From NCBI GenBank assembly GCA_024275955.1, contig JAJRYD010000014.1, positions 1 through 34,169 of the forward strand: a stretch of DNA of 34,169 nt. The letters are read 5' to 3'. This DNA comes from Nitrospirota bacterium. GTDB taxonomy: Bacteria; Nitrospinota_A; UBA7883; JACRGQ01. The notes beneath the pieces are model-generated. The model did no database searches. It was not told the origin of the DNA and worked only from the letters and a program-made list of their open reading frames with translations. This document shows, one piece after another, positions 398-30,877 of this stretch (position 1 is its first letter; every line of letters starts with the position of its first letter). The position numbers were made by a program, and so were the translations under genes.

Positions 398-1372
398 CTA
401 ATATTTTCGGTTAAAGTGCCAGCGGTAGGCAGACCGAATAATATCTTTTATATTAGAATTTACAGGTTTCCAACCCAGAATGCGTTTGGCTTTTTCATTT
501 GAGGCGATAAGTTGCGCCGCATCGCCCCTTCTTCTAGGATTTTCTTTAGTGTCTATTTTTCGACCAGTGATTTTGGATATAATGCTGATCACTTCCTTGA
601 CGCTTACCCCACTATTGGAACCGAGGTTTATAATTTCAAAAATATTTTTTCTGGAAAGATATTCCATCGCCTTAGCATGTGCCTCGACAATATCCTCAAT
701 ATGAATATAGTCTCTGATGCAGGATCCATCCTCTGTATTCCAGTCAGCACCAAAAATGCTTGTTGTGCGGTTGTGTTCAAAGTTATCCAAAACGATAGGG
801 ATAAGGTTTTGTTTTTTGATCTGCACTTCACCTACCGACCCGTCAATAGCGGCACCTGCGGCATTAAAATACCTGAGAATTATACAATCCATATTAAAGG
901 CCTTATGATAGTCGGCAAGAATGCTTTCCAACATTAATTTGGACGAACCGTATGGGTTTATCGGGTTTACGGGATGTTGCTCGTCTATCGGCAAGTACTG
1001 AGGTTCGCCATAGACTGCAGCAGTCGAAGAAAAAATAAACTTTTTGCAGTTATGCTGTAGCATCGTCTTAAGAAGATGCAAAACTTTTGCGACATTATTA
1101 CGGTAGTATAAATCTGGCTTTCTGACTGATTCGCCAACCTGAATTTTTGCCGCAAAGTGCATGACAATTTCAATGCTTTCTTTCTGGAAGATATCATTCA
1201 GGATTTTTTCATCACCGATGTCCCCCTCATAAAATGTGACGCTTTTCGGTAGTGCTTTTTTCTTTCCAGTAGACAAGTTATCGAACACGACAACATCATG
1301 CTGTGCATCATGCAACTTGGATGACATTAAGGAGCCTACATAGCCAGCTCCTCCAGTCACAAGGACTTTCAT
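398..1372 (-). CDS. galE: UDP-glucose 4-epimerase
   Basis: The product (324 aa) is a cytoplasmic extended short-chain dehydrogenase that interconverts UDP-glucose and UDP-galactose (or the GlcNAc/GalNAc pair), using tightly bound NAD. The N-terminal NAD-binding motif is TGGAGYVG (residues 6-13). FSSTAAVYG (114-122) carries the catalytic Ser/Thr, and Y141-x3-K145 (YGSSK) is the catalytic pair. The RYFNAAGA stretch and the RRRGD near the C-terminus are typical of GalE. The length is slightly below the 338 aa of the Escherichia coli enzyme. A GAGG ribosome site lies about 7 bases upstream of the ATG. It is transcribed away from the main operon, about 150 bp downstream of the GDP-mannose epimerase gene, and probably shares its transcript. 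The epimerised sugar (hexose or N-acetylhexosamine) cannot be decided from the sequence. Confidence 0.93.
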   Translation of the reverse strand: MKVLVTGGAGYVGSLMSSKLHDAQHDVVVFDNLSTGKKKALPKSVTFYEGDIGDEKILNDIFQKESIEIVMHFAAKIQVGESVRKPDLYYRNNVAKVLHLLKTMLQHNCKKFIFSSTAAVYGEPQYLPIDEQHPVNPINPYGSSKLMLESILADYHKAFNMDCIILRYFNAAGAAIDGSVGEVQIKKQNLIPIVLDNFEHNRTTSIFGADWNTEDGSCIRDYIHIEDIVEAHAKAMEYLSRKNIFEIINLGSNSGVSVKEVISIISKITGRKIDTKENPRRRGDAAQLIASNEKAKRILGWKPVNSNIKDIIRSAYRWHFNRKY

Positions 1373-1526: not shown

Positions 1527-2495
1527 TTAGAGCCTACCAGCATCTTTAAGTTGCATGGAAATCCATTGGTAGGTTACTTCCATTCCATCCTTCAGTGTTT
1601 GGGAAGGTTTCCATCCAAGTTTTTTTTCTATCAAGGCATTATCAGAGTTTCTGCCATTAACCCCTAACGGTCCGTCAATATGTTTTTTGGAGAGATTTTT
1701 GCCGGCAATTTCCATAACAAGATCAGCTAATCCGTTTATGGATATCATCTCTTCGGAACCGATATTTACCGGACCAGCAAAGTCTGAGCGCATAAGCCGT
1801 ATGGTACCCTCTAGGCATTCGCTAACATGTAAAAAAGATCTTGTCTGCGTACCAGGTCCCCATATCTCCAACTCTCCCCCATCAGAGGCTTCTCCAACTT
1901 TCCGGCAAATAGCTGCGGGGGACTTTTCTCTGCCGCCATCCCATGTTCCTTCCTCACCGAAGATATTGTGATACCTAGCAATATGGACATTCATCCCGTA
2001 ATTCCTTCCATAAGCCATATATAGTCGTTCACTGAAAAGTTTTTCCCATCCATACTCAGAATCAGGAGCGGCGGGGTATGCTGAATTTTCTTCACAGTTA
2101 GGATTTTCAGGATCTAGCTGGTTATGTTCAGGGTAGATGCAGGCCGAAGAAGAGTAAAAGATTCTTTTTACCTTTGCTTCTTTGCACGCCTCCAACATAT
2201 TAAGATTTACTGTGGCCGAATTGTGCATTATCGCGGCATCGTGGTCTCCGACAAAAACAAAACCGGCCCCACCCATATCCGCGGCAAGCTGGTACACTTC
2301 ATCAAATGGCTCGTCAGTAATGCCTTTGGCAAACTTCGGATCTCTGAGGTCACCGATAATAAAATCGTCCGCCGCAGTTTCGGAGAACTCTGGATGCTTC
2401 AAATCTACGCCCCTAACCCAGTTACCTTCCGCCTTAAGCCTTTTTACAAGGTGGCTTCCTATAAACCCACCAGCACCACAAACAAGTATTTTCAT
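1527..2495 (-). CDS. GDP-mannose 3,5-epimerase-like NAD-dependent epimerase
   Basis: The product (322 aa) resembles plant GDP-mannose 3,5-epimerase, which turns GDP-mannose into GDP-L-galactose (and GDP-gulose). The NAD site is CGAGGFIGSH (6-15). The family signature AADMGGAGFV occurs at 71-80. SSACIYPE carries C119, Y148 and K152 form the YxxxK pair (YGWEK), and GGREKSPAA holds K191. In plant GME the matching Cys and Lys are the two acid/base residues of the double epimerisation, and both are kept here. The C-terminal half also follows the family closely (TRSFLHVSECLEG, NIGSEEMISIN, GRNSDNALI). An AGAGGGG ribosome site precedes the ATG. It probably supplies L-galactose or a derived 6-deoxy sugar. 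The exact product is inferred from family resemblance. Confidence 0.85.
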   Translation of the reverse strand: MKILVCGAGGFIGSHLVKRLKAEGNWVRGVDLKHPEFSETAADDFIIGDLRDPKFAKGITDEPFDEVYQLAADMGGAGFVFVGDHDAAIMHNSATVNLNMLEACKEAKVKRIFYSSSACIYPEHNQLDPENPNCEENSAYPAAPDSEYGWEKLFSERLYMAYGRNYGMNVHIARYHNIFGEEGTWDGGREKSPAAICRKVGEASDGGELEIWGPGTQTRSFLHVSECLEGTIRLMRSDFAGPVNIGSEEMISINGLADLVMEIAGKNLSKKHIDGPLGVNGRNSDNALIEKKLGWKPSQTLKDGMEVTYQWISMQLKDAGRL

Positions 2496-2630: not shown

Positions 2631-2962
2631 TTACCGCAAAAATATTTCAGAAATGCTTGCCGTTAGTATTTTATCGCCTTTTATTCTTATGTTGAGCCTG
2701 CCAGATCAACTCCTTTGGGAAGCATAAACTTTACGATCTTTTTATCAGATGAGGAATTGCCAAGCCTCTGAAGTTTAAATTGTCTGCCTGTGCTATCAAA
2801 TGCCACGCATGAAATGCTAAGGAAAAATACATGCTTTTCGCTCAGCACGATATTCAGGATCTCCTTGTCGGGAAGGATATTTTCATTAAGGTCAGTCTCA
2901 AGACCTATATCCCGAGTATTATAGAGTTGTTGAATAAATATATACTTCAAATCACTACTGTC
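2631..2962 (-). pseudogene. Decayed C-terminal end of an 806-aa membrane protein paralogue
   Basis: The minus strand encodes a degraded relative of the last ~110 residues of the membrane protein at 23315-25735. Matching pieces are LSEKH against FSRKH, then SCVAFDSTGRQFKL against RCKAIDANGKTYEL, then KFMLPKGVDL against KFEIPDGIDV. After a one-base slip near 2695-2700 the match resumes with IKGDKILTASISEIFLR and a stop at 2631-2633, against IKGDKMLMISISEIRVR and stop in the intact gene. About 20 residues are missing upstream of LSEKH. The remainder of the gene has been lost at the edge of the IS4-type remnant. The fragment points the same way as the epimerase and galE genes, so it was probably the gene upstream of them. 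Confidence 0.8.
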
Positions 2963-3571
2963 CGGTTAAAATAGCGAAGCTTGTCTAGGCTCCATCTCCA
3001 CATCTTTAAGTCTGTCCGGCTTTAGGGTCAGAATGTCGACCAAAGCTTTTCTGTCCAATAAGAGTTTCCCGTATTACTCTGCCCAATTCAAGCAAGGAGC
3101 CTGCATATTTTATCTGATATTTAATATAGGCAAGCAAAAGGTAGTAGCACATGGCAACCCATATCTGGCTCATGACTGCATTTTTACTAGTTCCAAGGAA
3201 CGATTTTATCTTCAGGTTCTGCTTTATCCATTTGAAGAAAAGCTCGATCTGCCACCTCGCTTTGTAGATTTCAGCGGTGGCAGATGCCGTAAATTTGAAG
3301 TTGTTGGTTAAAAAAACAAGCTTCTTTTTCTTTTCCTCTAGTTTTCCTAGAGGTATTATTTGACTGGTGTTGGGCAGTTTATTGCTTCATCCTTCGAACA
3401 TCAATATTGGCAACACTTTTGCGGTCAACCATTTTCCAAGGGGTGGCGAAAAAAATGCTGTAGCCCATATGTTCTTAATCTAAACTCTTTTTCTGCGCGC
3501 AGTCCATACTGTGCCGATATTTTTAGGGGACTCCTTATGTTAAATTCAGGTATACTTATCCGGCAGTGGCT
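2953..3571 (-). mobile_element. Internally deleted IS4-type insertion sequence remnant
   Basis: The 3' part of a transposase gene lies here. At the left edge ACTACTGTCCGGTTAA (from 2954) contains the transposase stop codon and looks like the element's terminal repeat. A poorly matching inverted copy, TTATCCGGCAGTGGCTG, is seen near 3556-3572 and may be the other end. The span of about 620 bp is roughly half that of a complete element of this type, so the 5' part of the transposase gene has been deleted or scrambled. Between about 3357 and 3550 I see no homology I can name. No target-site duplication is evident. The element separates the minus-strand genes from the plus-strand operon. Confidence 0.5.
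2966..3356 (-). pseudogene. IS4-family DDE transposase, C-terminal fragment with frameshift
   Basis: Reading leftward from about 3356, the strand encodes LVFLTNNF, then AEIYKARWQIELFFKWIKQN, then SFLGTSKNAVMSQIWVAMCY. This is the C-terminal part of an IS4-type DDE transposase. The Y-x2-R-W-x-I/V-E-x-F-F-K-W-x-K region carries the conserved third acidic residue (the Glu). An extra base near 3058-3062 breaks the frame. After it the family sequence resumes as LDRKALVDILTLKPDRL and ends at a stop at 2966-2968. The N-terminal two thirds, with the first two catalytic Asp residues, are absent. The protein cannot be functional. Confidence 0.85.
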
Positions 3572-3584
3572 GAGTGTAATTTAA

Positions 3585-4583
<999 letters not shown>

Positions 4584-6163: not shown

Positions 6164-6934
6164 GTGATACTTGCTGTTATACAGGCGAGGTTCTCATCCA
6201 GGAGACTTCCTGGCAAAGTTTTGCAGAACCTTGGCGGTAAGCCGATGCTCGCGGTAATGATTGAACGACTGCTTCGTTCTAAAAAAATAGACAAGCTTAT
6301 CGTCGCCACAAGTCGCGAATCCTCAGATGATGGGGTGGAAAAACTTTGCAAAGAACTAAACCTTGTCTGCTATCGTGGCTCTCTTGACAATGTGCTGGCA
6401 CGTTTTTACAACGCGGCCTTGGCTGAAAAGCCGGATCACATTCTCAGATTCACAGGCGATTGTCCTCTTATAGATGTGGAAATAGTTGATGCTCTGATAG
6501 AGTTTTACATGGAAAATGGTTTTGATTATGCGTCTAACAATCAGGTGCCAACCTATCCTGACGGTATGGATGCGGAGGTCTTTAGATTTAGCCTCTTGGA
6601 AAAAGCCTTTAACGAGGCAACCCTGCCCTCTGAGAAAGAGCATGTAACACCGTTTATGTACAAAGAGGGCAATCTCTTTAATACAGGTATCTATAAATGT
6701 GAGAGCAACTTGTCTCACCTAAGGTTTACCGTAGATGAACCTTCCGATATGGAACTTGTGAGGGCCATCTATGCCGATCTGGCAGTAGAAAAACCACATT
6801 TTGGGTTAGGCGATATCTTGTCGCTACTAGAAAAAAAGCCCGAGCTTCTAAAACTCAACTCTATGTTCAAGCGTAACGAGGGCTACCTTGAGTCGCTTAA
6901 AAAAGATGAGATTTTTTTCGATGACACTAGGTAG
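6164..6934 (+). CDS. spsF: SpsF-type cytidylyltransferase (CMP-sugar synthesis)
   Basis: The product (256 aa) belongs to the SpsF group of nucleotidyltransferases, which activate nonulosonic acids as CMP-sugars with CTP. The nucleotide-binding signature is VIQARFSSRRLPGKVL at the N-terminus. RFTGDCPLID carries the metal-binding Asp, and YASNNQVPTYPDGMDAEVF is characteristic of the group. The start is a GTG at 6164, four bases after the previous stop, and it gives exactly the conserved N-terminus. The order cytidylyltransferase, RmlD-like reductase, NeuB-type synthase fits one pathway. Bacillus sps clusters pair SpsF with SpsE in the same way. The specific sugar is not established. Confidence 0.85.
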   Translation: MILAVIQARFSSRRLPGKVLQNLGGKPMLAVMIERLLRSKKIDKLIVATSRESSDDGVEKLCKELNLVCYRGSLDNVLARFYNAALAEKPDHILRFTGDCPLIDVEIVDALIEFYMENGFDYASNNQVPTYPDGMDAEVFRFSLLEKAFNEATLPSEKEHVTPFMYKEGNLFNTGIYKCESNLSHLRFTVDEPSDMELVRAIYADLAVEKPHFGLGDILSLLEKKPELLKLNSMFKRNEGYLESLKKDEIFFDDTR

Positions 6935-7858: not shown

Positions 7859-8926
7859 ATGGGTGATGTTATTAAGATAGGGCATCGGAGCATAAGTGAA
7901 AAACACCCAACCTATTTTATTGCGGATATTGCAGCAAACCATAACGGAAGCTTGGAGAAGGCGAAAGAGCTGATAAGGCTGGCAAAGGAGGCTGGTGCCG
8001 ATGCGGCAAAATTTCAGCATTTTCAAGCCGAAAAGATAGTTTCTGAATGGGGCTTTAACCATATGGATGGGCAGGTGTCTCATCAGGCAAAATGGGAAAA
8101 ATCTGTCACTGAGGTTTACAGGGATGCCTCTGTGCCATGGGACTGGACACCGGAGTTGAAGGCGCACTGTGATAAAGTTGGGATAGATTTTTTTTCTGCT
8201 CCTTATGATTTGGGGGCGATAGATTATCTGGATCAATTCATGCCTGCCTATAAAGTAGGCTCTGGCGACCTTACATGGCACGAATCGCTTGAGCGAATGG
8301 CGTCTAAGGGTAAGCCTGTGATACTTGCCACCGGCGCATCACGGCTTGGTGAGGTGCAATCTGCCGTCAATGTTATAAGAAAAATAAATAATGACTTGAT
8401 CCTTTTGCAATGCAATACAAACTATACTGGAAGCATAAAAAACCTGAAGCATGTATCTCTTAATGTCTTAAAAACTTACCGCGCCATATGGCCGGATATG
8501 ATTCTTGGAATATCAGATCATACTCCCGGACACGCAACCGTCCTTGGAATGATTGCGCTTGGTGGCAGAGTGGTGGAAAAACATTTTACCGATAAGAGGG
8601 ATCAGATAGGGCCAGATCACGGTTTTTCAATGGACCCAAGGGGCTGGAAAGAGATGGTGGATATATCCCGCGAGTTGGAAGCAGCCATGGGTAACCACGA
8701 AAAGATTGTAGAGGGTAATGAAAAAGAGACGGTTATCATACAGCGAAGGAGTTGTCGTGCAGCGAAGGTGTTAAAGGCCGGAACAGTTCTTAAAAGGGAC
8801 GATATTGATGTACTCAGACCTGCACCTCTGAATGGTGTTTCGCCTGCCGACATACAAAAGCTTATTGGTATTACTATAAAAAGAGAGATGGAGCTGGGCG
8901 AGACATTCGTTTGGGAAAACCTTTAA
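7859..8926 (+). CDS. neuB: NeuB/PseI-type nonulosonate synthase with SAF domain
   Basis: The product (355 aa) condenses phosphoenolpyruvate with a six-carbon amino sugar to make a nine-carbon sialic-type acid. The TIM barrel opens with IADIAANHNGSLEKA and AGADAAKFQHF. GSGDLTWHESLE, QCNTNYTG and GISDHTPGHATVLGM follow, and VVEKHFTD contributes the metal-binding His. The C-terminal ~60 residues (RRSCRAAKVLKAGTVL onward to LIGITIKREMELGE) form the SAF/antifreeze-like domain seen in full-length NeuB, PseI and LegI. An AAAAGGAAAA run precedes the ATG. pseB upstream favours a pseudaminic-type product, but NeuB, LegI and PseI are not cleanly separable by eye. The stop overlaps the next start by one base (TAATG). 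Confidence 0.9.
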   Translation: MGDVIKIGHRSISEKHPTYFIADIAANHNGSLEKAKELIRLAKEAGADAAKFQHFQAEKIVSEWGFNHMDGQVSHQAKWEKSVTEVYRDASVPWDWTPELKAHCDKVGIDFFSAPYDLGAIDYLDQFMPAYKVGSGDLTWHESLERMASKGKPVILATGASRLGEVQSAVNVIRKINNDLILLQCNTNYTGSIKNLKHVSLNVLKTYRAIWPDMILGISDHTPGHATVLGMIALGGRVVEKHFTDKRDQIGPDHGFSMDPRGWKEMVDISRELEAAMGNHEKIVEGNEKETVIIQRRSCRAAKVLKAGTVLKRDDIDVLRPAPLNGVSPADIQKLIGITIKREMELGETFVWENL

Positions 8927-9681: not shown

Positions 9682-11370
9682 ATGAATTTTGTTCTAATTA
9701 AAAAGATAATAAAAAAACAGTTTCCACTTCTGTTTTCCTTCTATCAGAAGATGTTCTGGTTTCTAAGGCTGAACATCCCTACTTATTACCCACAGATATT
9801 TAAAAAGTTAAAAGAACTTTCCCGCAAGGAAGGTCTGCCGGAAAACGGAAAAGAAGATGAAGGTAAGAAAGTTTTCTTTTTTGCCATACGACAGGATGCG
9901 CTACATATAGCATGGGAGTTTACTATTGCCCAGGCCCTTAGGCTTAGGGGGTGCAAGGTTGATTACCTTAGTTGTGATGGTCTTGTTATGGATGCCTGCA
10001 ATGAGAGTTCTTATCCAAAGCTTACGCAGGAAGATTGCGACAGGTGCCGGAAATTCGCGTCACTTTTTTATAAGTCTGCGAGTATGGAGATATCATGGCT
10101 TAATAAGTTTTACGATGAAAGTTGGCTAGAAGAGGGGAAGGGGCTTATCTCTGACCTTGAGTTATCTGATCTTGTAACCGTCAAATACGACTCACTTTCC
10201 ATCGGTGAACTGGTAAGGCCATCTGTCTGCCACTTTTGCAGACTGGAGGATATAGAGAAATATGGCGCGGACGACCCGAGGGTTGTGGAGATATACAAAA
10301 ACTTTCTTATTTGGGCTGTCGTGATGATAAATGTCTGCAAAAAGGTGCTTGATCATTACAAACCGGAAGTAGTTGTAATGATCAATGGCCTTTTTATGAC
10401 CGAGCGGATGATGTTTGAGCTGACAAAAAGGAATGGGATCAGAAGCGTTATAATTGAAACAGGTTATGCCCCGGATTCGCTGGTTGTCTTGCATAATCAG
10501 TACATCAGCTATGGGCAGATAGACGGTTGGGACAACTATAAGACTAAAGAATTAACAGCAAGCGAAAATCAGCGTTTGGACGATATGATGAGTGACAGGC
10601 GGCATGGCAAAGGGCAGGCGGTAGATTACTGGGCAAAGGTAAAGGACAACAAGCAGTTAATCGTTGATGAACTGGGGCTTGCGCCATATAAGTCTGTTGC
10701 TGTCCTTTTTCCAAATATTACATGGGATTCTGCCACCTACGGGCTGGAGGTAATGTTTAAAACCTTACATGACTGGGTTGAATCTACCATTGCTTACTTT
10801 AAAGCCAGAGAAGATATTGTGCTTGTGATTCGTATTCATCCGGCGGAGGCCACATGGTCAGGGGCGATGCGTGACTCTGTGATGCTATGGCTTAATGGAA
10901 AGTATGGTAGCGAATTGCCCCAAAACGTAAAGATTGTTCCGCCGGAAAGTGAATTGAGTTCCTATGCCTTGATGGAGCTTGCCGATGTGGGGTTGGTTTT
11001 TTCGTCAACCACCGGTATGGAGATGAGCCTAATGGGAAAACGGGTAATAGTTGTTGGGAAAACCCATTATTGGGGCAGAGGTTTTACATTCGAACCTTCA
11101 ACCGAGAGTGAATACTACGATATGATGAGCGATTTTCTTTTGAGGGGACTGGGTAACGAAAAATACAAGGTGGATATTGAAATGGCAAGAAGATATACTA
11201 ATTTTATTTTTTATGTCGCTTCTTTGCAGTTAAAGCAGGTAACTGCAAACAATTTCAGGACGGTCCCAAGCCTTTGGCTGGATTCATACAAAGATTTGGA
11301 GCCGGGAAAAGATAGGGCAATAGACACTATTTGCGATGGAATAATTGACGGCAAACAATTTGTGCTTTAG
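9682..11370 (+). CDS. Large GT-B-like glycosyltransferase, capsule-synthesis type
   Basis: The product is 562 aa. A basic N-terminal helix (residues 1-40) with Phe/Trp patches could bind the membrane surface. A first Rossmann-like half begins at KVFFFAIRQDALHIAWEF (about 63-80). The C-terminal half has SVAVLFPN, VLVIRIHPAE, a LADVGLVFSSTTGMEMS switch and GKRVIVVGKTHYWGRG. The HP and S-S-T-T-G-x-E elements recall KpsC/KpsS and other capsule or lipopolysaccharide GT-B transferases. A cluster of cysteines is notable: C98 in SCDG, C106, and C119-x2-C122. A further C-x2-C lies in the SVCHFCRLED stretch. The sugar donor is unknown. It sits between the family 2 transferase and rfbH, so it probably builds part of the same repeat unit. 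Confidence 0.7.
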   Translation: MNFVLIKKIIKKQFPLLFSFYQKMFWFLRLNIPTYYPQIFKKLKELSRKEGLPENGKEDEGKKVFFFAIRQDALHIAWEFTIAQALRLRGCKVDYLSCDGLVMDACNESSYPKLTQEDCDRCRKFASLFYKSASMEISWLNKFYDESWLEEGKGLISDLELSDLVTVKYDSLSIGELVRPSVCHFCRLEDIEKYGADDPRVVEIYKNFLIWAVVMINVCKKVLDHYKPEVVVMINGLFMTERMMFELTKRNGIRSVIIETGYAPDSLVVLHNQYISYGQIDGWDNYKTKELTASENQRLDDMMSDRRHGKGQAVDYWAKVKDNKQLIVDELGLAPYKSVAVLFPNITWDSATYGLEVMFKTLHDWVESTIAYFKAREDIVLVIRIHPAEATWSGAMRDSVMLWLNGKYGSELPQNVKIVPPESELSSYALMELADVGLVFSSTTGMEMSLMGKRVIVVGKTHYWGRGFTFEPSTESEYYDMMSDFLLRGLGNEKYKVDIEMARRYTNFIFYVASLQLKQVTANNFRTVPSLWLDSYKDLEPGKDRAIDTICDGIIDGKQFVL

Positions 11371-20150: not shown

Positions 20151-21548
20151 ATGAAAATAATTCTATTAAACCCAATTAAACGTGGCCAGAACTTTAATGT
20201 GAACGTAGATGCAGTTATCGCACGGCATACTGGTTCTCGCTCGAAGGGTGGCGACTTCTCTCCGCTGGGGCTTACATATATTGCCGCACTTCTAAGAGAA
20301 AATGGTTTTGATGTAAGAGTGCTTGACCCATACCCGGAAAGGATAGGTTTCGATAAGACTATTGAAATTTGCAAAGAGTACGACATGGTAGCAATGCCAC
20401 TTGCCACATTGAATGCAAGTGGTGCGTTTGAACTTTTTGAAAACCTAAAAGATAAAAATCGTGTTTTCCTTGGTACATATGCGTCATCTGTTGCTGATTT
20501 TCTGCTTGCAAAAGGTAGATGTGACATTGTTGCAATAGGTGAGCCTGAAGAGAGCATGCTTGAACTCTGCAAAAGCGGCGGTAATCCTGAATCTATCAAG
20601 GGTCTTTTTTATTATGATGGTAAAAATGTAGTCAAGAACCGAGCACGGCCATTAATTGAAAACCTTGACCTGCTCCCAGTACCCGCGAGAGATCTTATTC
20701 GTAACGAGCTTTATTCGGAAGTAATATTCGGGAAACCTACGGCCTTGCTCTTGGGTGCGCGTGGATGCCCTTTTCCTTGCACTTTCTGCGCCACGAGGCT
20801 TATGTACGGCAAATCTGTCAGGGAGAGATCAGTCGAGAACATAACAAAAGAACTGAGAGATATTATTGAGAATCACCATTTAGAGCACATTTTTTTTATT
20901 GATGATACTTTCACTATTACTGAAAAAAGGGTTGTGGAGCTTTGTGATGCAATTATAGCTAGTGGTCTAAAGTTCAAATGGGTGTGTAACGGTAGGGTTG
21001 ACAGAGTCACACCTGTAATGCTACGGGCAATGAAGCGTGCTGGCTGTATAGAGATACGCTATGGCGTTGAATCTGCATCTAAGGAAGTTCTGAAAAAGAT
21101 CAAAAAAAATATATCTCTTGATCAGGTCGACTACGCGATAAAAGAGACAAAAAAAACTGGTATTGCCCCATCATGCTTTTTCATGATTGGGAACCCGGGA
21201 GAAACAGTGGAAGATATAAGAAACACGGTTAGCTACGCTATCAAGTTAAAACCTTATTACGCTGTATTTAATATCTCGATTCCGATGCCAGGGTCAGAAC
21301 TCTTTGATAGTGGAACAGAGACGGCTCTAAAGGGGTTGGACGAAAAATATGACACTGTGAACTCAAGTGGAGCCTCTGGCGCTCTAAGTGGTGAGGTTTT
21401 AAATAAAGAGCTTTTAAGGTCATATTTAAGGTATTACCTGAACCCAAATTATCTTGGACAGCTGTTTAGCCAGCTTATACAGTCTCCATCTGATGTGGTG
21501 CCAGTTTTTAGAATGCTACTTAGAGGAGCAAAAGAGATACTCTTTTAG
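20151..21548 (+). CDS. B12-binding-domain radical SAM enzyme (A)
   Basis: The product (465 aa) has an N-terminal cobalamin-binding-type Rossmann domain (about 1-150) and a radical SAM core. The [4Fe-4S] ligands are C206, C210 and C213 in RGCPFPCTFCA. FFIDDTFTI and RYGVESASKEVLKKI are the usual later strands of the barrel, and MIGNPGETVEDI is typical of this group. The DxHxxG cobalamin ligand motif is not seen in the N-terminal domain, which is common in many members of this class. Known members do C-methylation, ring chemistry or oxidation on unactivated carbons. It lies 26 bp after ugd with little intergenic sequence and no clear ribosome site. The neighbours suggest a sugar or lipid carrier substrate, which is an inference. 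Confidence 0.85.
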   Translation: MKIILLNPIKRGQNFNVNVDAVIARHTGSRSKGGDFSPLGLTYIAALLRENGFDVRVLDPYPERIGFDKTIEICKEYDMVAMPLATLNASGAFELFENLKDKNRVFLGTYASSVADFLLAKGRCDIVAIGEPEESMLELCKSGGNPESIKGLFYYDGKNVVKNRARPLIENLDLLPVPARDLIRNELYSEVIFGKPTALLLGARGCPFPCTFCATRLMYGKSVRERSVENITKELRDIIENHHLEHIFFIDDTFTITEKRVVELCDAIIASGLKFKWVCNGRVDRVTPVMLRAMKRAGCIEIRYGVESASKEVLKKIKKNISLDQVDYAIKETKKTGIAPSCFFMIGNPGETVEDIRNTVSYAIKLKPYYAVFNISIPMPGSELFDSGTETALKGLDEKYDTVNSSGASGALSGEVLNKELLRSYLRYYLNPNYLGQLFSQLIQSPSDVVPVFRMLLRGAKEILF

Positions 21549-23314: not shown

Positions 23315-25735
23315 ATGAATCTATCTTTGTTTGTGCCAGCACTGCTTATAGTCCTCAACATTCCAGGGCTCTCGTTACTCATTGGCCTGCCACCAATAGT
23401 TATTTTTGTTGCCTCATTTTTGTTTTTTAACCTTCTCCCTGGCTGGCTTTTTCTGAAACTTTTAAAACCAGGCGAAAAGTATGAAAACTCCTATGCTATT
23501 TCTTTTGCCATGTCACTTGGTTCTCTTAGTGTTATTTCCATCTGCGCCTACGTCACACATATGAGCATTAATAGCTTTATCTGGCTTGTAGTTGCTTATT
23601 GTTTTGTGCTGTTTCTCTTCTATGCATATAACCTGCAAGCAGTTGGGTGGCCCGCTACAAGGGAAGGTTTTTTCGATTTTAAGACCGAAGACCCATATTA
23701 TTTTAAAAGTGCACTTTTACTGCAAATAGGTTTTGCGCTTATTCTTTTATGGGTATCGAGGTACGCAATATTTGGAATGGATACCTACTCTCACATTGCC
23801 AGAGTGAAAGATATTTTAGACAGTGACACACTTCCTACATCCGGAATTATTATGCATAATGTATTATTTGATCCTGTATATTCTGCTAATCAGATATATC
23901 TTTCTTGGGCATCAATATGTAAAAGCAGTGGGCTTCAGCCATTCAAAGTATATGTATACCTCCCTGTCTTGTTGTCATTTTTAAGCTTTAGTGCGATGCG
24001 ATTTTTTATTTCGTCTGCTGGCCTTGCGCGGCACGAGGGGAAGACTATGCTTGCTCTCTTTTTTTGGGAGTATGGGCTTAAAAGCATAGAGTACAATTAT
24101 TCGCCGTTGGTCCACTTGGCTCAACCTGCATCTCAATTTATTTGGATACTTGTTCCGCTTATAACCGGCCTCTTCCTAGAGGTTTTATCAGGAAAAGGAA
24201 AAAGCTTCAAAGAGGCTGTACTGCTTGGTCTAGCACTTGGCTCATCCGCCTCGGTGCATCTACAGTTTACTATTTACTATTCCATAGTGATGGCTTTCTT
24301 GTTGTTAGTGCTTTATTTTTTTAAAAAAGATAATAGGCAGAGCTTTAGCAAGATTTTTGCCAGCTCTGTCCTATTTGGTTTTTTGACACTGCCGTACTTT
24401 TTTTTAAAAATATCTCAGATGGACGGCTACGCTAAAGAAAAAGATTTGTATTCTGCCTTCAAGGCAAGGTTTTCCATGTTTCCATTAGGTGACTGGACCT
24501 TCTTCAAGCCGGAGATATATATAACACCAACAAACATTTCTGTGATTATTGCACTCATCTATTTTTCCATCCACATTTTAAGTCGAGATAAAAAGAAAGA
24601 GATTGTTGTATTTTCTGTAATTCTGCTTGCACCTTTTTTGCTTACTGTGCCAGCGTTTTCCGGTCACTACCTTTCCATGAAAACATCTCTTTTGCTAGTT
24701 GGTCGCTTTGCTACGCTCGATAATTTTACTTTTATCCTGCCTGTTGTTGCGGCCACCTTTTTAATTAACAGGGTCGACATCTATTATAGATACAAGAAGA
24801 TAATTTTAACGTTTTTTTTCTTGGCCTGTTTTGTCGTTGTATGGATAGTTATTTCTCTTATTATTTTAGTGTTTAGCAAAGATGTAGACCGTTTTAATAT
24901 GTTTAAGGTTAGTGAGCTGAAAGTTCTTAAAAAGCTTGATTCTTATAGCGGCAATGCAAAAAGTTTTATTTCTAACCCAATGTACGGTGATGTCTTTTCT
25001 GCTTATGTCTCTATCCCCCCAATGGTTGGGCGGTTCTGGCTCGCCCCTGATGGCTATGAGCGACATCAGGATTTTCAAAGGTTTTTTAATCATCGAGAGG
25101 TCGATAGTGCCAGAAATAGAATAATTGAAGATAGAAGTGTCGCTTTGGTTTTGATTGACCGGCAGTCTTACGCTGAAAGTATTGCGGAAAAACTTATCTT
25201 TTCTAAGCAGGACAGGTATGAAGAGGTGCTACATGACGACGGCGGCAGGTTTGGATTATATGAGGTTCAGACTGGCACCGATGATAGTTCGTATAAGCTC
25301 AACCTAGAAAGCTACGAGGAGTACGAGAACGAATTTGGCGGCAATATCAATAAGATTGCAATAAAAACGCTGTACGATTTGCCGTTTGAGTTTAGTCATC
25401 AAAATCTTCTTGATGATAATCAGGAGACTTTCCTTACATGGATGCATGGTCAGGATGTTCTGTTTGACATAACGCTAAATGCAGATGTTGGCTCTGATAG
25501 CCGTAGCTTCGAAATTGATTTTAGCAGAAAGCACAGGTACTATTCCAGCATCAGATGCAAAGCAATAGACGCGAATGGAAAAACCTATGAGCTTAATTCT
25601 GACTACCATGGAAGCTTTGGACAAATGACTGTTAAGTTTGAGATTCCAGATGGCATAGATGTTCGCAAGCTCTCATTTCAGATCAAAGGTGACAAGATGT
25701 TGATGATAAGTATTTCGGAAATAAGAGTTAGATAA
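23315..25735 (+). CDS. Large multi-pass membrane protein, GT-C-like or Wzy-like
   Basis: The product is 806 aa. Roughly the first 520 residues are very hydrophobic, with a dozen or so candidate membrane spans, starting at about 4-24, 26-48, 60-80 and 84-105. After the span at about 128-148 comes YAIFGMDTYSHIARVKDIL, with D156 and H160 near the start of a loop. This Asp-containing first large loop recalls the catalytic acid of GT-C glycosyltransferases. The last ~250 residues are soluble and likely face the periplasm, ending in a beta-rich stretch (about 690-806). That end is duplicated as a relic at 2631-2962. It could transfer a polyprenyl-linked sugar or act as the polymerase. No separate Wzy is visible in the window. 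Confidence 0.7.
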   Translation: MNLSLFVPALLIVLNIPGLSLLIGLPPIVIFVASFLFFNLLPGWLFLKLLKPGEKYENSYAISFAMSLGSLSVISICAYVTHMSINSFIWLVVAYCFVLFLFYAYNLQAVGWPATREGFFDFKTEDPYYFKSALLLQIGFALILLWVSRYAIFGMDTYSHIARVKDILDSDTLPTSGIIMHNVLFDPVYSANQIYLSWASICKSSGLQPFKVYVYLPVLLSFLSFSAMRFFISSAGLARHEGKTMLALFFWEYGLKSIEYNYSPLVHLAQPASQFIWILVPLITGLFLEVLSGKGKSFKEAVLLGLALGSSASVHLQFTIYYSIVMAFLLLVLYFFKKDNRQSFSKIFASSVLFGFLTLPYFFLKISQMDGYAKEKDLYSAFKARFSMFPLGDWTFFKPEIYITPTNISVIIALIYFSIHILSRDKKKEIVVFSVILLAPFLLTVPAFSGHYLSMKTSLLLVGRFATLDNFTFILPVVAATFLINRVDIYYRYKKIILTFFFLACFVVVWIVISLIILVFSKDVDRFNMFKVSELKVLKKLDSYSGNAKSFISNPMYGDVFSAYVSIPPMVGRFWLAPDGYERHQDFQRFFNHREVDSARNRIIEDRSVALVLIDRQSYAESIAEKLIFSKQDRYEEVLHDDGGRFGLYEVQTGTDDSSYKLNLESYEEYENEFGGNINKIAIKTLYDLPFEFSHQNLLDDNQETFLTWMHGQDVLFDITLNADVGSDSRSFEIDFSRKHRYYSSIRCKAIDANGKTYELNSDYHGSFGQMTVKFEIPDGIDVRKLSFQIKGDKMLMISISEIRVR

Positions 25736-27239: not shown

Positions 27240-27944
27240 TTGCAAGAGAATAATAAAGAGATATTGACCATCATTACGGCAAGGGGTGGTTCTAAGGGTG
27301 TACCAAGAAAAAATATTAAAGAGCTTTATGGGAAGCCTCTTGTTTCGTATGCCATAGAGGCGTCACTTAATTCCAAGCTCTCTACCAGGACAATGGTATC
27401 TACAGAAGATGAGGAGATTAGCGAAGTGGCAAAGAGCCTAGGTGCCGAGGTTCCATTTCTACGACCCCAAAGCCTGGCAGAGGACAACATACATTCGGTT
27501 TTTGCCATAATTGACGCTGTTGAAAAGCTACGAGAGATAGAAGGGTACTCTCCTGCTGGTGTTATTATGCTGTTGCCAACAGCGCCTTTTACAACGTCAA
27601 AACATCTTGATGCCTCTATAGAACTATTTTTTAGAAATAACAGAGAGAATGTAATGAGTGTGATGCCTTTTGGCAAGCCTGTTACAGGCATCAGGATTAT
27701 AGAGGATGGACTTTTGATACCATTAATAAAGACAGATAATTATAACCTGCTTCGCCAGCAGTGTAATTACTATTATGTAAATGCCGCAATTTACATAGCG
27801 TCGCCTGAAAACTTAACTAAAGATAGAACCTATCATGCTGGCAGAATACACCCGTATATGATGACTCAGCACGAATCTGTAGATATAAATACACAGATTG
27901 ATTTTGATTATGCAGAATTTCTAATGGCCAAGGAGTATAAATAA
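27240..27944 (+). CDS. neuA: NeuA-type acylneuraminate (CMP-nonulosonate) cytidylyltransferase
   Basis: The product (234 aa) transfers CMP from CTP to a nonulosonic acid. The signature IITARGGSKGVPRKNIKELY is near the N-terminus, with GKPLVSYAIEASL next. VSTEDEEISEVAKSLGAEVP, FLRPQSLAED and LLPTAPFTTSKHLDASIEL follow the family. NAAIYI and the C-terminal DIDYAEFLMA-like Asp motif (here IDFDYAEFLMAKE) complete it. The start is a TTG with GGAGAG 6 bases upstream. It precedes the second radical SAM gene by 1 bp and shares a module with the KdsC-type phosphatase and the short NeuB, suggesting a KDN-like or related acid. A degraded second NeuA is at 33792. Confidence 0.9.
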   Translation: MQENNKEILTIITARGGSKGVPRKNIKELYGKPLVSYAIEASLNSKLSTRTMVSTEDEEISEVAKSLGAEVPFLRPQSLAEDNIHSVFAIIDAVEKLREIEGYSPAGVIMLLPTAPFTTSKHLDASIELFFRNNRENVMSVMPFGKPVTGIRIIEDGLLIPLIKTDNYNLLRQQCNYYYVNAAIYIASPENLTKDRTYHAGRIHPYMMTQHESVDINTQIDFDYAEFLMAKEYK

Positions 27945-27945
27945 T

Positions 27946-29421
27946 ATGTCAGCTAATATTATGTTTATTAATCCTGTTTCATCAAGAAACCAATTTACTG
28001 GTGAGGATAACTATTTTCCTACTGGCATACTGTCGCTTGCCACGGTGCTGAATAGAAGGGGCGACAGTGTCAGAATTCGTGATGTTAATAATGATTTTTT
28101 TAACTCCCAAGAGGTCAATCATGAAATCATCGAGGATTACATTGATAAAAATATAATACCTGATGCGGTGGAATTTAATCCGGACATAATAGGGCTTGGC
28201 TGTATTTTTTCTGGTGCATTTCCCTATTTGCTACTTATTTCCAAAAAAATGAAGAGTTTGTTTCCTCAGGCATCGATAGTCATAGGTGGAATGCATCCAA
28301 CGATTTTTGCAAAAACGATAATAGAAAGGTACGACTGGATAGATTACGTTGTTGTGGGTGAAGGTGAAATTTCTTTCCCTCAATTGGTTGATTACATAAA
28401 AGATGCTAAGGGAGATTTGGCAAAGATAGATGGTCTTGCGTACAGGGGTGCGGGTGAAGTTAGGCTTAATGAAAAATCTCAGTTTTATGACAAATTGGAT
28501 GAGCTTCCAGCTCCTGATTATAGTTTACTAAATGTTGATGAGTATAAAATGGACACTTCCAAGTGGTATAATCCTCTCAACATCCCAGTTGGCCAACCGT
28601 TTCCTATACTCAGTAGCAGGAGCTGCCCGCTGAGATGTACCTTTTGTAGCATGTGGCTTGCTCATGGCCCAACAATCAGATATCGCTCACCTAAATTGGT
28701 GCTTGACGAGATGGAGCATGTTTACAATAAATATGGCACTCGGTATTTTCAGTTCATGGATGATAACCTTACCTTTGATAAGGGCAGGACGCTTGCCATA
28801 TGTAATGGAATAAAAGACAGGGGAATGAAAATTCAGTTTGATACACCCAATGGTGTTGCTATTAATAAGCTGGACCAGGAGATCATAGATGCAATGGTTA
28901 ACGCAGGAATGATACGAATAAGCATAGCTATTGAAAGCGGTTCTGAATATATCCGTAACAAGGTGATGAGAAAGGGCCTTCGCGATCATAAGATATACGA
29001 GGTAGTGAATGCCTGCATGAAGCACCACCATCTCTATGTAAACGGGTTTTTTATAATAGGTATGCCTGAAGAAACGCATGAGACCCTTGAAGAGACATAT
29101 AAGATGATAGAGGAGTTACCGCTAGATAAGTACGCACTCAGCTATGCGACGCCATTTCCAGGTACGTTTCTTTTTAACTATTGTGCGGAGCATAATCTTC
29201 TTCCCTTTCCAAAAGAAAAGTATGTGGACCTTGATAATCTACAAGCACGAGTTGATTATCCACACTTTATACCGCACGCTCTGGAGGGAGAGGATCTTGT
29301 TAAATTTCGTGAAAGAGCCTATGCCATTGGTGAAAGAAGAAGGGCAGAATCAAAAGTTCCTGGAAATCATCCACTGAGGTTTAATATGTCGGAACCGATT
29401 ATCTTGGCTAGCGGTGAGTAA
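27946..29421 (+). CDS. B12-binding-domain radical SAM enzyme (B)
   Basis: The product (491 aa) has an N-terminal cobalamin-binding-type domain. FPTGILSLATVLNRRGDSV and VIGGMHPTIFAKTI are in the usual places, and YVVVGEGEISFPQLVDYI ends the region. The radical SAM core has C227, C231 and C234 in SCPLRCTFCSMW. FMDDNLTFD and RISIAIESGSEYIRNKVMR are later barrel strands. No DxHxxG motif is seen. It starts 1 bp after neuA and ends overlapping the KdsC-type gene region, so it is embedded in the nonulosonate module. Its job is probably a radical modification of this sugar or its precursor. That is inferred only from context. Sequence resemblance to radical SAM A (20151) is in architecture only. Confidence 0.85.
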   Translation: MSANIMFINPVSSRNQFTGEDNYFPTGILSLATVLNRRGDSVRIRDVNNDFFNSQEVNHEIIEDYIDKNIIPDAVEFNPDIIGLGCIFSGAFPYLLLISKKMKSLFPQASIVIGGMHPTIFAKTIIERYDWIDYVVVGEGEISFPQLVDYIKDAKGDLAKIDGLAYRGAGEVRLNEKSQFYDKLDELPAPDYSLLNVDEYKMDTSKWYNPLNIPVGQPFPILSSRSCPLRCTFCSMWLAHGPTIRYRSPKLVLDEMEHVYNKYGTRYFQFMDDNLTFDKGRTLAICNGIKDRGMKIQFDTPNGVAINKLDQEIIDAMVNAGMIRISIAIESGSEYIRNKVMRKGLRDHKIYEVVNACMKHHHLYVNGFFIIGMPEETHETLEETYKMIEELPLDKYALSYATPFPGTFLFNYCAEHNLLPFPKEKYVDLDNLQARVDYPHFIPHALEGEDLVKFRERAYAIGERRRAESKVPGNHPLRFNMSEPIILASGE

Positions 29422-30013: not shown

Positions 30014-30877
30014 ATGCTGACAGAGACTAAAGAACCTTACATTATTGCTGAAATAGGCATAAACCATAATGGGGATATGGAAATAGCTAAAAAGCTGATT
30101 GATATTGCTGTATTTACCGGCTGTAACGCCGCAAAATTTCAGAAAAGAACACTGGAAGTTGTTTATTCCAAAGAAGAGCTTGATAAGGAAAGAGAAAGCC
30201 CATGGGGTACCACCAATAGAGAACAGAAAGCGGGGCTGGAATTCAGCATAGGGCAGTACGACGAGATAAATGCTTACTGTCAGGAGAAGGGAATAGACTT
30301 CATGTTTTCGGCATGGGATATTGAAAGCCAAAAGAAGATGGCCAAGTATAACTGCAAGTACAACAAGGTGGCATCTGCAATGATGACTCATTACGACCTA
30401 GTTGAAGAGATAGCTAAAGAAGGAAAGCATACATTCGTCTCAACCGGTATGACCAAGTACGACGAAGTCGATAAAGCTGTCGAGATATTTAAAAAACACA
30501 ACTGTCCAATAACGCTCCTGCACACCATTTCCACATATCCATGCACTGATGAAGAGTGCAACATCAAGGCTATGATTGCGTTAAAAGAGCGTTACAATCT
30601 TCCTGTTGGTTACTCCGGTCACGAAACCGGCATCCTGCCTACCATTATTGCCGTTGTTCTGGGCGCAACCGTTGTCGAAAGGCACATTACCCTCAATAGA
30701 GCCATGTATGGGTCTGATCAGGCGGCATCTCTGGAGCTTAAGGGGCTTGACTACATAACCAAATACTCCAAATCCATTCACGCTATAATTGGGAACGGAG
30801 AGAAATCTATATCTGATGGTGAGCAAGGGGTGGCAAAGAAACTTCGCTATTTCGTTCGGCATTCACACGATAAGTAA
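30014..30877 (+). CDS. neuB: Short NeuB-family nonulosonate (9-phosphate) synthase
   Basis: The product (287 aa) condenses phosphoenolpyruvate with a sugar or sugar phosphate. YIIAEIGINHNGDMEIAKKL opens the TIM barrel, with CNAAKFQKRT next. FSAWDIESQKKM, STGMTKYDEVDKAVEI, LLHTISTYPC and GYSGHETGILPTI follow, and VVERHITLNRAMYGSDQAAS completes the active site. It stops where the SAF domain would begin. The SAF domain normally helps close the active site of the partner subunit. The gene sits beside a KdsC-type phosphatase, so the acceptor may be mannose-6-phosphate or an amino-sugar 6-phosphate. AGGAGAG lies 5 bases before the ATG. The 102 bp before it hold no clear terminator. Confidence 0.9.
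   Translation: MLTETKEPYIIAEIGINHNGDMEIAKKLIDIAVFTGCNAAKFQKRTLEVVYSKEELDKERESPWGTTNREQKAGLEFSIGQYDEINAYCQEKGIDFMFSAWDIESQKKMAKYNCKYNKVASAMMTHYDLVEEIAKEGKHTFVSTGMTKYDEVDKAVEIFKKHNCPITLLHTISTYPCTDEECNIKAMIALKERYNLPVGYSGHETGILPTIIAVVLGATVVERHITLNRAMYGSDQAASLELKGLDYITKYSKSIHAIIGNGEKSISDGEQGVAKKLRYFVRHSHDK

Follow-up and report, generated by a model that had tools for sequence, protein, structure and literature searches.

A probable remnant of a divergent membrane protein gene at an IS4-family junction in a Nitrospirota polysaccharide locus

Homology of the relic to an intact membrane protein gene

When analyzing a polysaccharide locus of a Nitrospirota bacterium, we found a stretch of minus-strand DNA (positions 2631-2952) that is very probably a dead 3' fragment of a gene, distantly related to the gene of an intact 806-amino-acid (aa) membrane protein in the same locus. 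The window that was analyzed is a whole contig (C56) of 34,169 bases, from a draft genome of 2.45 Mb in 56 contigs. The fragment, called the relic below, lies between a sugar epimerase gene and the remnant of an IS4-family insertion sequence (IS). The intact gene (23315..25735, plus strand) is located about 20 kb from the relic on the same 34-kb contig and on the opposite strand. It was characterized by its translation, its hydropathy, and its neighbors, which encode a GT2 glycosyltransferase and a flippase.

The relic consists of two overlapping frames, which are colinear with residues 713 to 806 of the 806-aa protein. Frame A (2687..2952, minus strand), a remnant of the C-terminal domain, belongs to a reading frame that is open from 2965 to a stop codon at 2687 (92 codons). 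Its aligned part, 2702-2914, corresponds to residues 713 to 783 without gaps, with 22 of 71 residues identical; bases 2915-2952 have no clear alignment to the intact protein. Frame B (2631..2705, minus strand) holds the last 22 residues, 785 to 806, of which 13 are identical, and its stop codon coincides with that of the 806-aa protein.

The significance of this match was assessed with 2,000 shuffles each for frame A, frame B, and the joined pair. The observed scores were 107, 61, and 154, against shuffle maxima of 60, 44, and 60, respectively; in all three cases, every one of the 2,000 shuffles stayed below the observed score. A frameshift-aware alignment of the DNA to the protein scored 148, whereas the best of 100 codon shuffles scored 37. 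The initial annotation had described the match of the ends, including the position of the stop codon, and had named beforehand a formal alignment with both frames joined as a possible refutation; in that alignment, the similarity holds.

We compared the relic with 77 stop-to-stop frames of at least 80 aa from the window and with 904 frames of at least 250 aa taken from polysaccharide-type loci elsewhere (80 loci). With its score of 154, the intact gene far surpassed all of them; the next-best frames scored 44 in the window and 58 in the other loci. Conversely, when the intact protein was compared with 97 window frames, frame A came out on top, followed by the flippase with a score of 77. A search of the bacterium's own genome with the relic (HMMER scoring) returned the intact gene (E value of 2e-14; 38% identity), and the intact protein as a query matched itself and the relic and nothing else. 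The relic is short and diverged and its two frames were picked by eye, which could raise the suspicion of a chance similarity. However, the shuffles, the E value of the genome search, and the low scores of the next-best frames rule this out, and we consider its probability negligible. In 19 of 116 other genomes, the relic had weak matches with E values up to 1 (best, 0.013), which were taken as chance. Five weak matches that were inspected (L011, L021, L025, L029, and L034, the last from the same genome) did not lie within a membrane protein resembling the 806-aa protein.

The relic had been regarded as a second copy of the intact gene, and an alignment at the nucleotide level had been proposed as a check. 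Using blastn with 7-base words on a wider stretch, we obtained short matches only (best E value, 0.10), and a narrower DNA search gave only an E value of 7.3 among the matches listed. A protein identity of 38% together with no convincing DNA similarity makes the relic a distant homologue and not a second copy, and we reject a recent duplicate. Judged by these comparisons, the relic is an old divergent homologue. Both genes lie on one contig, and the genome searches revealed no further member, which would fit a local duplicate that arose in the present cluster and later decayed. However, the divergence at the protein and DNA levels would require a very old duplication, and the two gene neighborhoods differ and lie on opposite strands, so that we find such an origin highly improbable.

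The 806-aa protein and its C-terminal domain

The 806-aa protein is not matched by any Pfam or NCBIfam model. Hydropathy analysis showed that its N-terminal two thirds is hydrophobic and its C-terminal region soluble. In this layout it resembles GT-C-like glycosyltransferases, in which a multi-spanning membrane part is followed by a soluble domain at the C terminus; it differs in matching no family model and in having a poorly modeled fold. None of the 23 other genomes of the phylum yielded a relative with an E value up to 0.001, an absence that is expected for horizontally acquired clusters, and there was no match in plasmids. Of 384 other genomes searched, 4 contained weak relatives (E values up to 0.01). 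The best of these (E value of 2.9e-8; 25%) is an 801-aa protein that matches residues 25 to 359 only and, as aligned, lacks the C-terminal domain at its end. When a profile of this C-terminal region was searched, 1 of the 384 other genomes had a match, at an E value of 0.009 and with a stop inside the match.

With a mean pLDDT of 40, the model of the complete protein was too poor for fold searches. For the last 156 residues, an all-beta model of low confidence was obtained (mean pLDDT of 52), and a fold search with it returned CBM32-like and other sandwiches, the best with a Z score of 8.6 and 2.9 Å over 110 residues. A resemblance at a Z score of about 8 may reflect merely a common arrangement, and we treat the likeness of the modeled domain to CBM32 or galactose-binding domains as a lead, not a result. 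The surviving piece of the relic is the soluble C-terminal end, which is probably a β-sandwich.

The relic could also derive from a different protein, such as a glycosidase or a soluble transferase, that shared only a C-terminal sugar-binding-like domain and was never a membrane protein. Only the last ~94 residues survive, and the domain model is like the widespread CBM32-type sandwiches that are present in many proteins. However, the match continues up to the shared stop codon and leaves no tail, and a search of the genome found no other protein with this C-terminal region; we therefore consider this origin unlikely. We prefer a relative of the 806-aa protein gene as the source of the relic, and as only the end of the C-terminal domain is kept, the membrane part of that gene is what we infer.

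The intact protein and the relic could belong to an undescribed, fast-diverging family in which each polysaccharide type has its own cluster-specific membrane protein, ending in a sugar-binding-like domain. We put this forward tentatively and consider it doubtful. If it is true, the dead ends of such genes record the polysaccharide that a lineage formerly made.

The IS4-family junction

The relic is broken twice, by a frameshift near position 2700 and by a truncation at position 2953 that removed the whole sequence N-terminal to about residue 713. About 712 of the 806 residues are missing, and the remainder needs two frames in the one draft assembly. The frameshift could be a sequencing error of that assembly; the truncation is independent of it. 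The relic had been described as frameshifted and partly deleted, of which the frameshift stands; the deletion is not partial, as the whole 5' part is absent. It is not present to either side of the IS remnant, nor was it found in the rest of the assembly when the bacterium's own genome was searched with the intact protein.

The truncation point is exactly where the IS end starts. The remnant (2953 to ~3386, minus strand) comprises one IS end, located at 2953, and a transposase of which the last third is left (3006-3386). The initial annotation had correctly let the relic stop at an IS4 remnant but had extended it to position 2962. Bases 2953-2962 are shared with a copy of the IS end on another contig, C33, and so must be assigned to that end, together with the initial residues of frame A; the interval holds for 2631-2952.

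The transposase frame has a Pfam DDE_Tnp_1 match, and like IS4-family elements it fits the NCBIfam IS4 transposase model NF033592, at positions 255 to 331 of 332. Its score of 90 bits is below the whole-protein cutoff of 115 because only the last third remains. It aligns with residues 273 to 376 of a 388-aa IS4 transposase of Candidatus Thiodictyon, showing that the protein is present only from about residue 273 of 388 and that its first two thirds is gone. The difference from IS4-family elements is that the remnant keeps just one end and a third of the transposase.

Bases 2953-3078 are 99% identical over 126 bp to positions 1912-2037 of C33. The copy there is a lone 126-bp IS4 end (L002, 1501-1626) in a second polysaccharide-type locus of the same genome, located between genes for a UDP-sugar dehydrogenase and an O-antigen polymerase or ligase-like protein (names read from the translations). 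It was through this comparison that the one end was recognized; for the second end, there was no match among the repeats found. A single end offers no target-site duplication to read, and the element may have inserted into the gene or beside it. We found no complete copy of the element in the assembly, although draft assemblies frequently break at insertion sequences. In the 23 other genomes of the phylum, no close transposase relative was found at an E value of 1e-15 or better.

Gene content on both sides of the junction

Strand and gene content both switch at the IS junction. On one side, the relic points the same way as two minus-strand genes, as initially annotated. The nearer one (1527..2495), first called GME-like, encodes an NAD-dependent sugar epimerase (Pfam Epimerase; E value of 8.9e-42) that reached no NCBIfam equivalog cutoff among the 25 families listed. 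The other is the UDP-glucose 4-epimerase gene galE (398..1372; TIGR01179, 403 bits, with a cutoff of 262). Downstream of galE, at 181-294 on the minus strand, there is a 37-residue frame like the start of an IS3-family (ISKpn10-like) transposase. The identity is 46%, with a weak E value (0.05, the best of five matches listed) and no NCBIfam match. The block of galE and the epimerase gene may be flanked by IS remnants on both sides.

Beyond the IS remnant, pseB (3600..4583; TIGR03589, 531 bits, with a cutoff of 408) opens a long plus-strand cluster of polysaccharide and nonulosonic-acid-type genes. There are two NeuB-family synthase genes in it (7859-8926 and 30014-30877, plus strand), each with a cytidylyltransferase gene nearby (6164-6934 and 27240-27944), and these pairs suggest two different nonulosonic acids. 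The polysaccharide cluster also encodes two B12-binding radical SAM proteins (20151-21548 and 27946-29421, plus strand). A 562-aa protein encoded at 9682-11370 (plus strand) belongs to no Pfam family and has a weak, below-cutoff NCBIfam match to the BFO_1060 family glycosyltransferases (E value of 7.5e-8). Promoter and terminator scans gave counts only somewhat higher than in shuffles (8 versus a mean of 4.5 and 5 versus 2.7, respectively) and were left unused.

A likely history of the junction

An IS-adjacent deletion or recombination would explain why the 5' part of the relic gene and most of the IS are missing, and we consider an IS-linked rearrangement likely. At a polysaccharide locus, an IS4-family element would have inserted into the gene or next to it. 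A deletion or recombination adjacent to the element would then have joined the minus-strand block of relic, epimerase, and galE to the pseB-led plus-strand cluster. The rest of the relic gene would have been lost at the IS junction, and its surviving end would have been frameshifted too. The initial annotation had gone further and proposed an IS-driven replacement of the polysaccharide cluster. The rearrangement itself agrees with the junction and with the second, degraded IS end on C33, and we infer its direction and mechanism; replacement of a whole cluster may have been the outcome.

A simpler course is that an IS interrupted one gene and a local deletion followed, with no cluster replaced. 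One junction with one IS end is all the evidence, and the plus-strand cluster could have been there before. However, the 5' part is found on neither side of the IS, and the strand and content change at the junction, although a local deletion is still compatible with both. We see this course as a genuine possibility, even if we lean against it. With one genome to go by, either the minus-strand block or the plus-strand cluster may be the older, and one exchange or several deletions may have taken place.

Gene context of related epimerases

The initial annotation had also postulated an older operon of membrane transferase, epimerase, and galE genes, to be compared with related genomes. We used the epimerase as the query and collected 80 named loci (67 to 77% identical) plus 19 more from other genomes, 99 in total. 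The closest homologue is a Nitrospirae protein with 77% identity; none of the listed relatives is from the same genus. Flanking sequence of up to 8 kb per side was covered for the 80 loci and of about 1.5 kb for the 19.

Within these flanks, none of the 99 other loci has a relative of the relic near the close epimerase, and a single one (L103) has a close galE (tblastn E value below 1e-60). The ancestral arrangement is thus unattested, and the older operon is not corroborated. The absence is weak evidence, because the flanks are limited and the family of the relic diverges fast. Two weak pieces at one locus (L089; E values of 0.006 and 0.031) were dropped; the open reading frame there scores an E value of 1.1. 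An open reading frame with at least six hydrophobic segments ends just upstream of the epimerase in 3 of the 80 loci, 73 of which have at least 1.5 kb of upstream sequence. Two of these three proteins are of the Wzy_C O-antigen ligase type and one is a flippase, and they are unrelated to the 806-aa protein.

Comparison with known polysaccharide loci

The junction adds a further case, from a sparsely sampled phylum, of a polysaccharide locus with the fossil of another gene set at an insertion sequence junction. The relic also provides a second, diverged sequence for the unnamed membrane protein, from which the conserved part of its C-terminal end can be seen. Neither point changes current understanding.

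Rearrangement of the Escherichia coli O89m and group 1 capsule loci is described as involving IS-flanked polysaccharide loci and a 54-aa fossil of the replaced O8/O9 locus (PMC6128206). The Nitrospirota locus is similar in having insertion sequences beside polysaccharide loci and a short 3' fragment left as a fossil. It differs in that the E. coli fossil is 100% identical to a known locus, whereas the relic has only a homologue with 38% identity.

The galactose-initiated O-antigen clusters of Salmonella are described as containing wzy remnants, IS fragments, and the remnant of an H-repeat at a recombination junction (PMC3715488). They share with the Nitrospirota locus a dead piece of a membrane protein gene inside a polysaccharide cluster and a mobile-element remnant where two blocks meet. 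In Salmonella, however, the intact parent and donor clusters are known; neither is known for the relic, and its protein family has no name. By analogy with these published O-antigen cases, the relic is best understood as an ordinary scar of surface-sugar cluster rearrangement, of the same kind as theirs.
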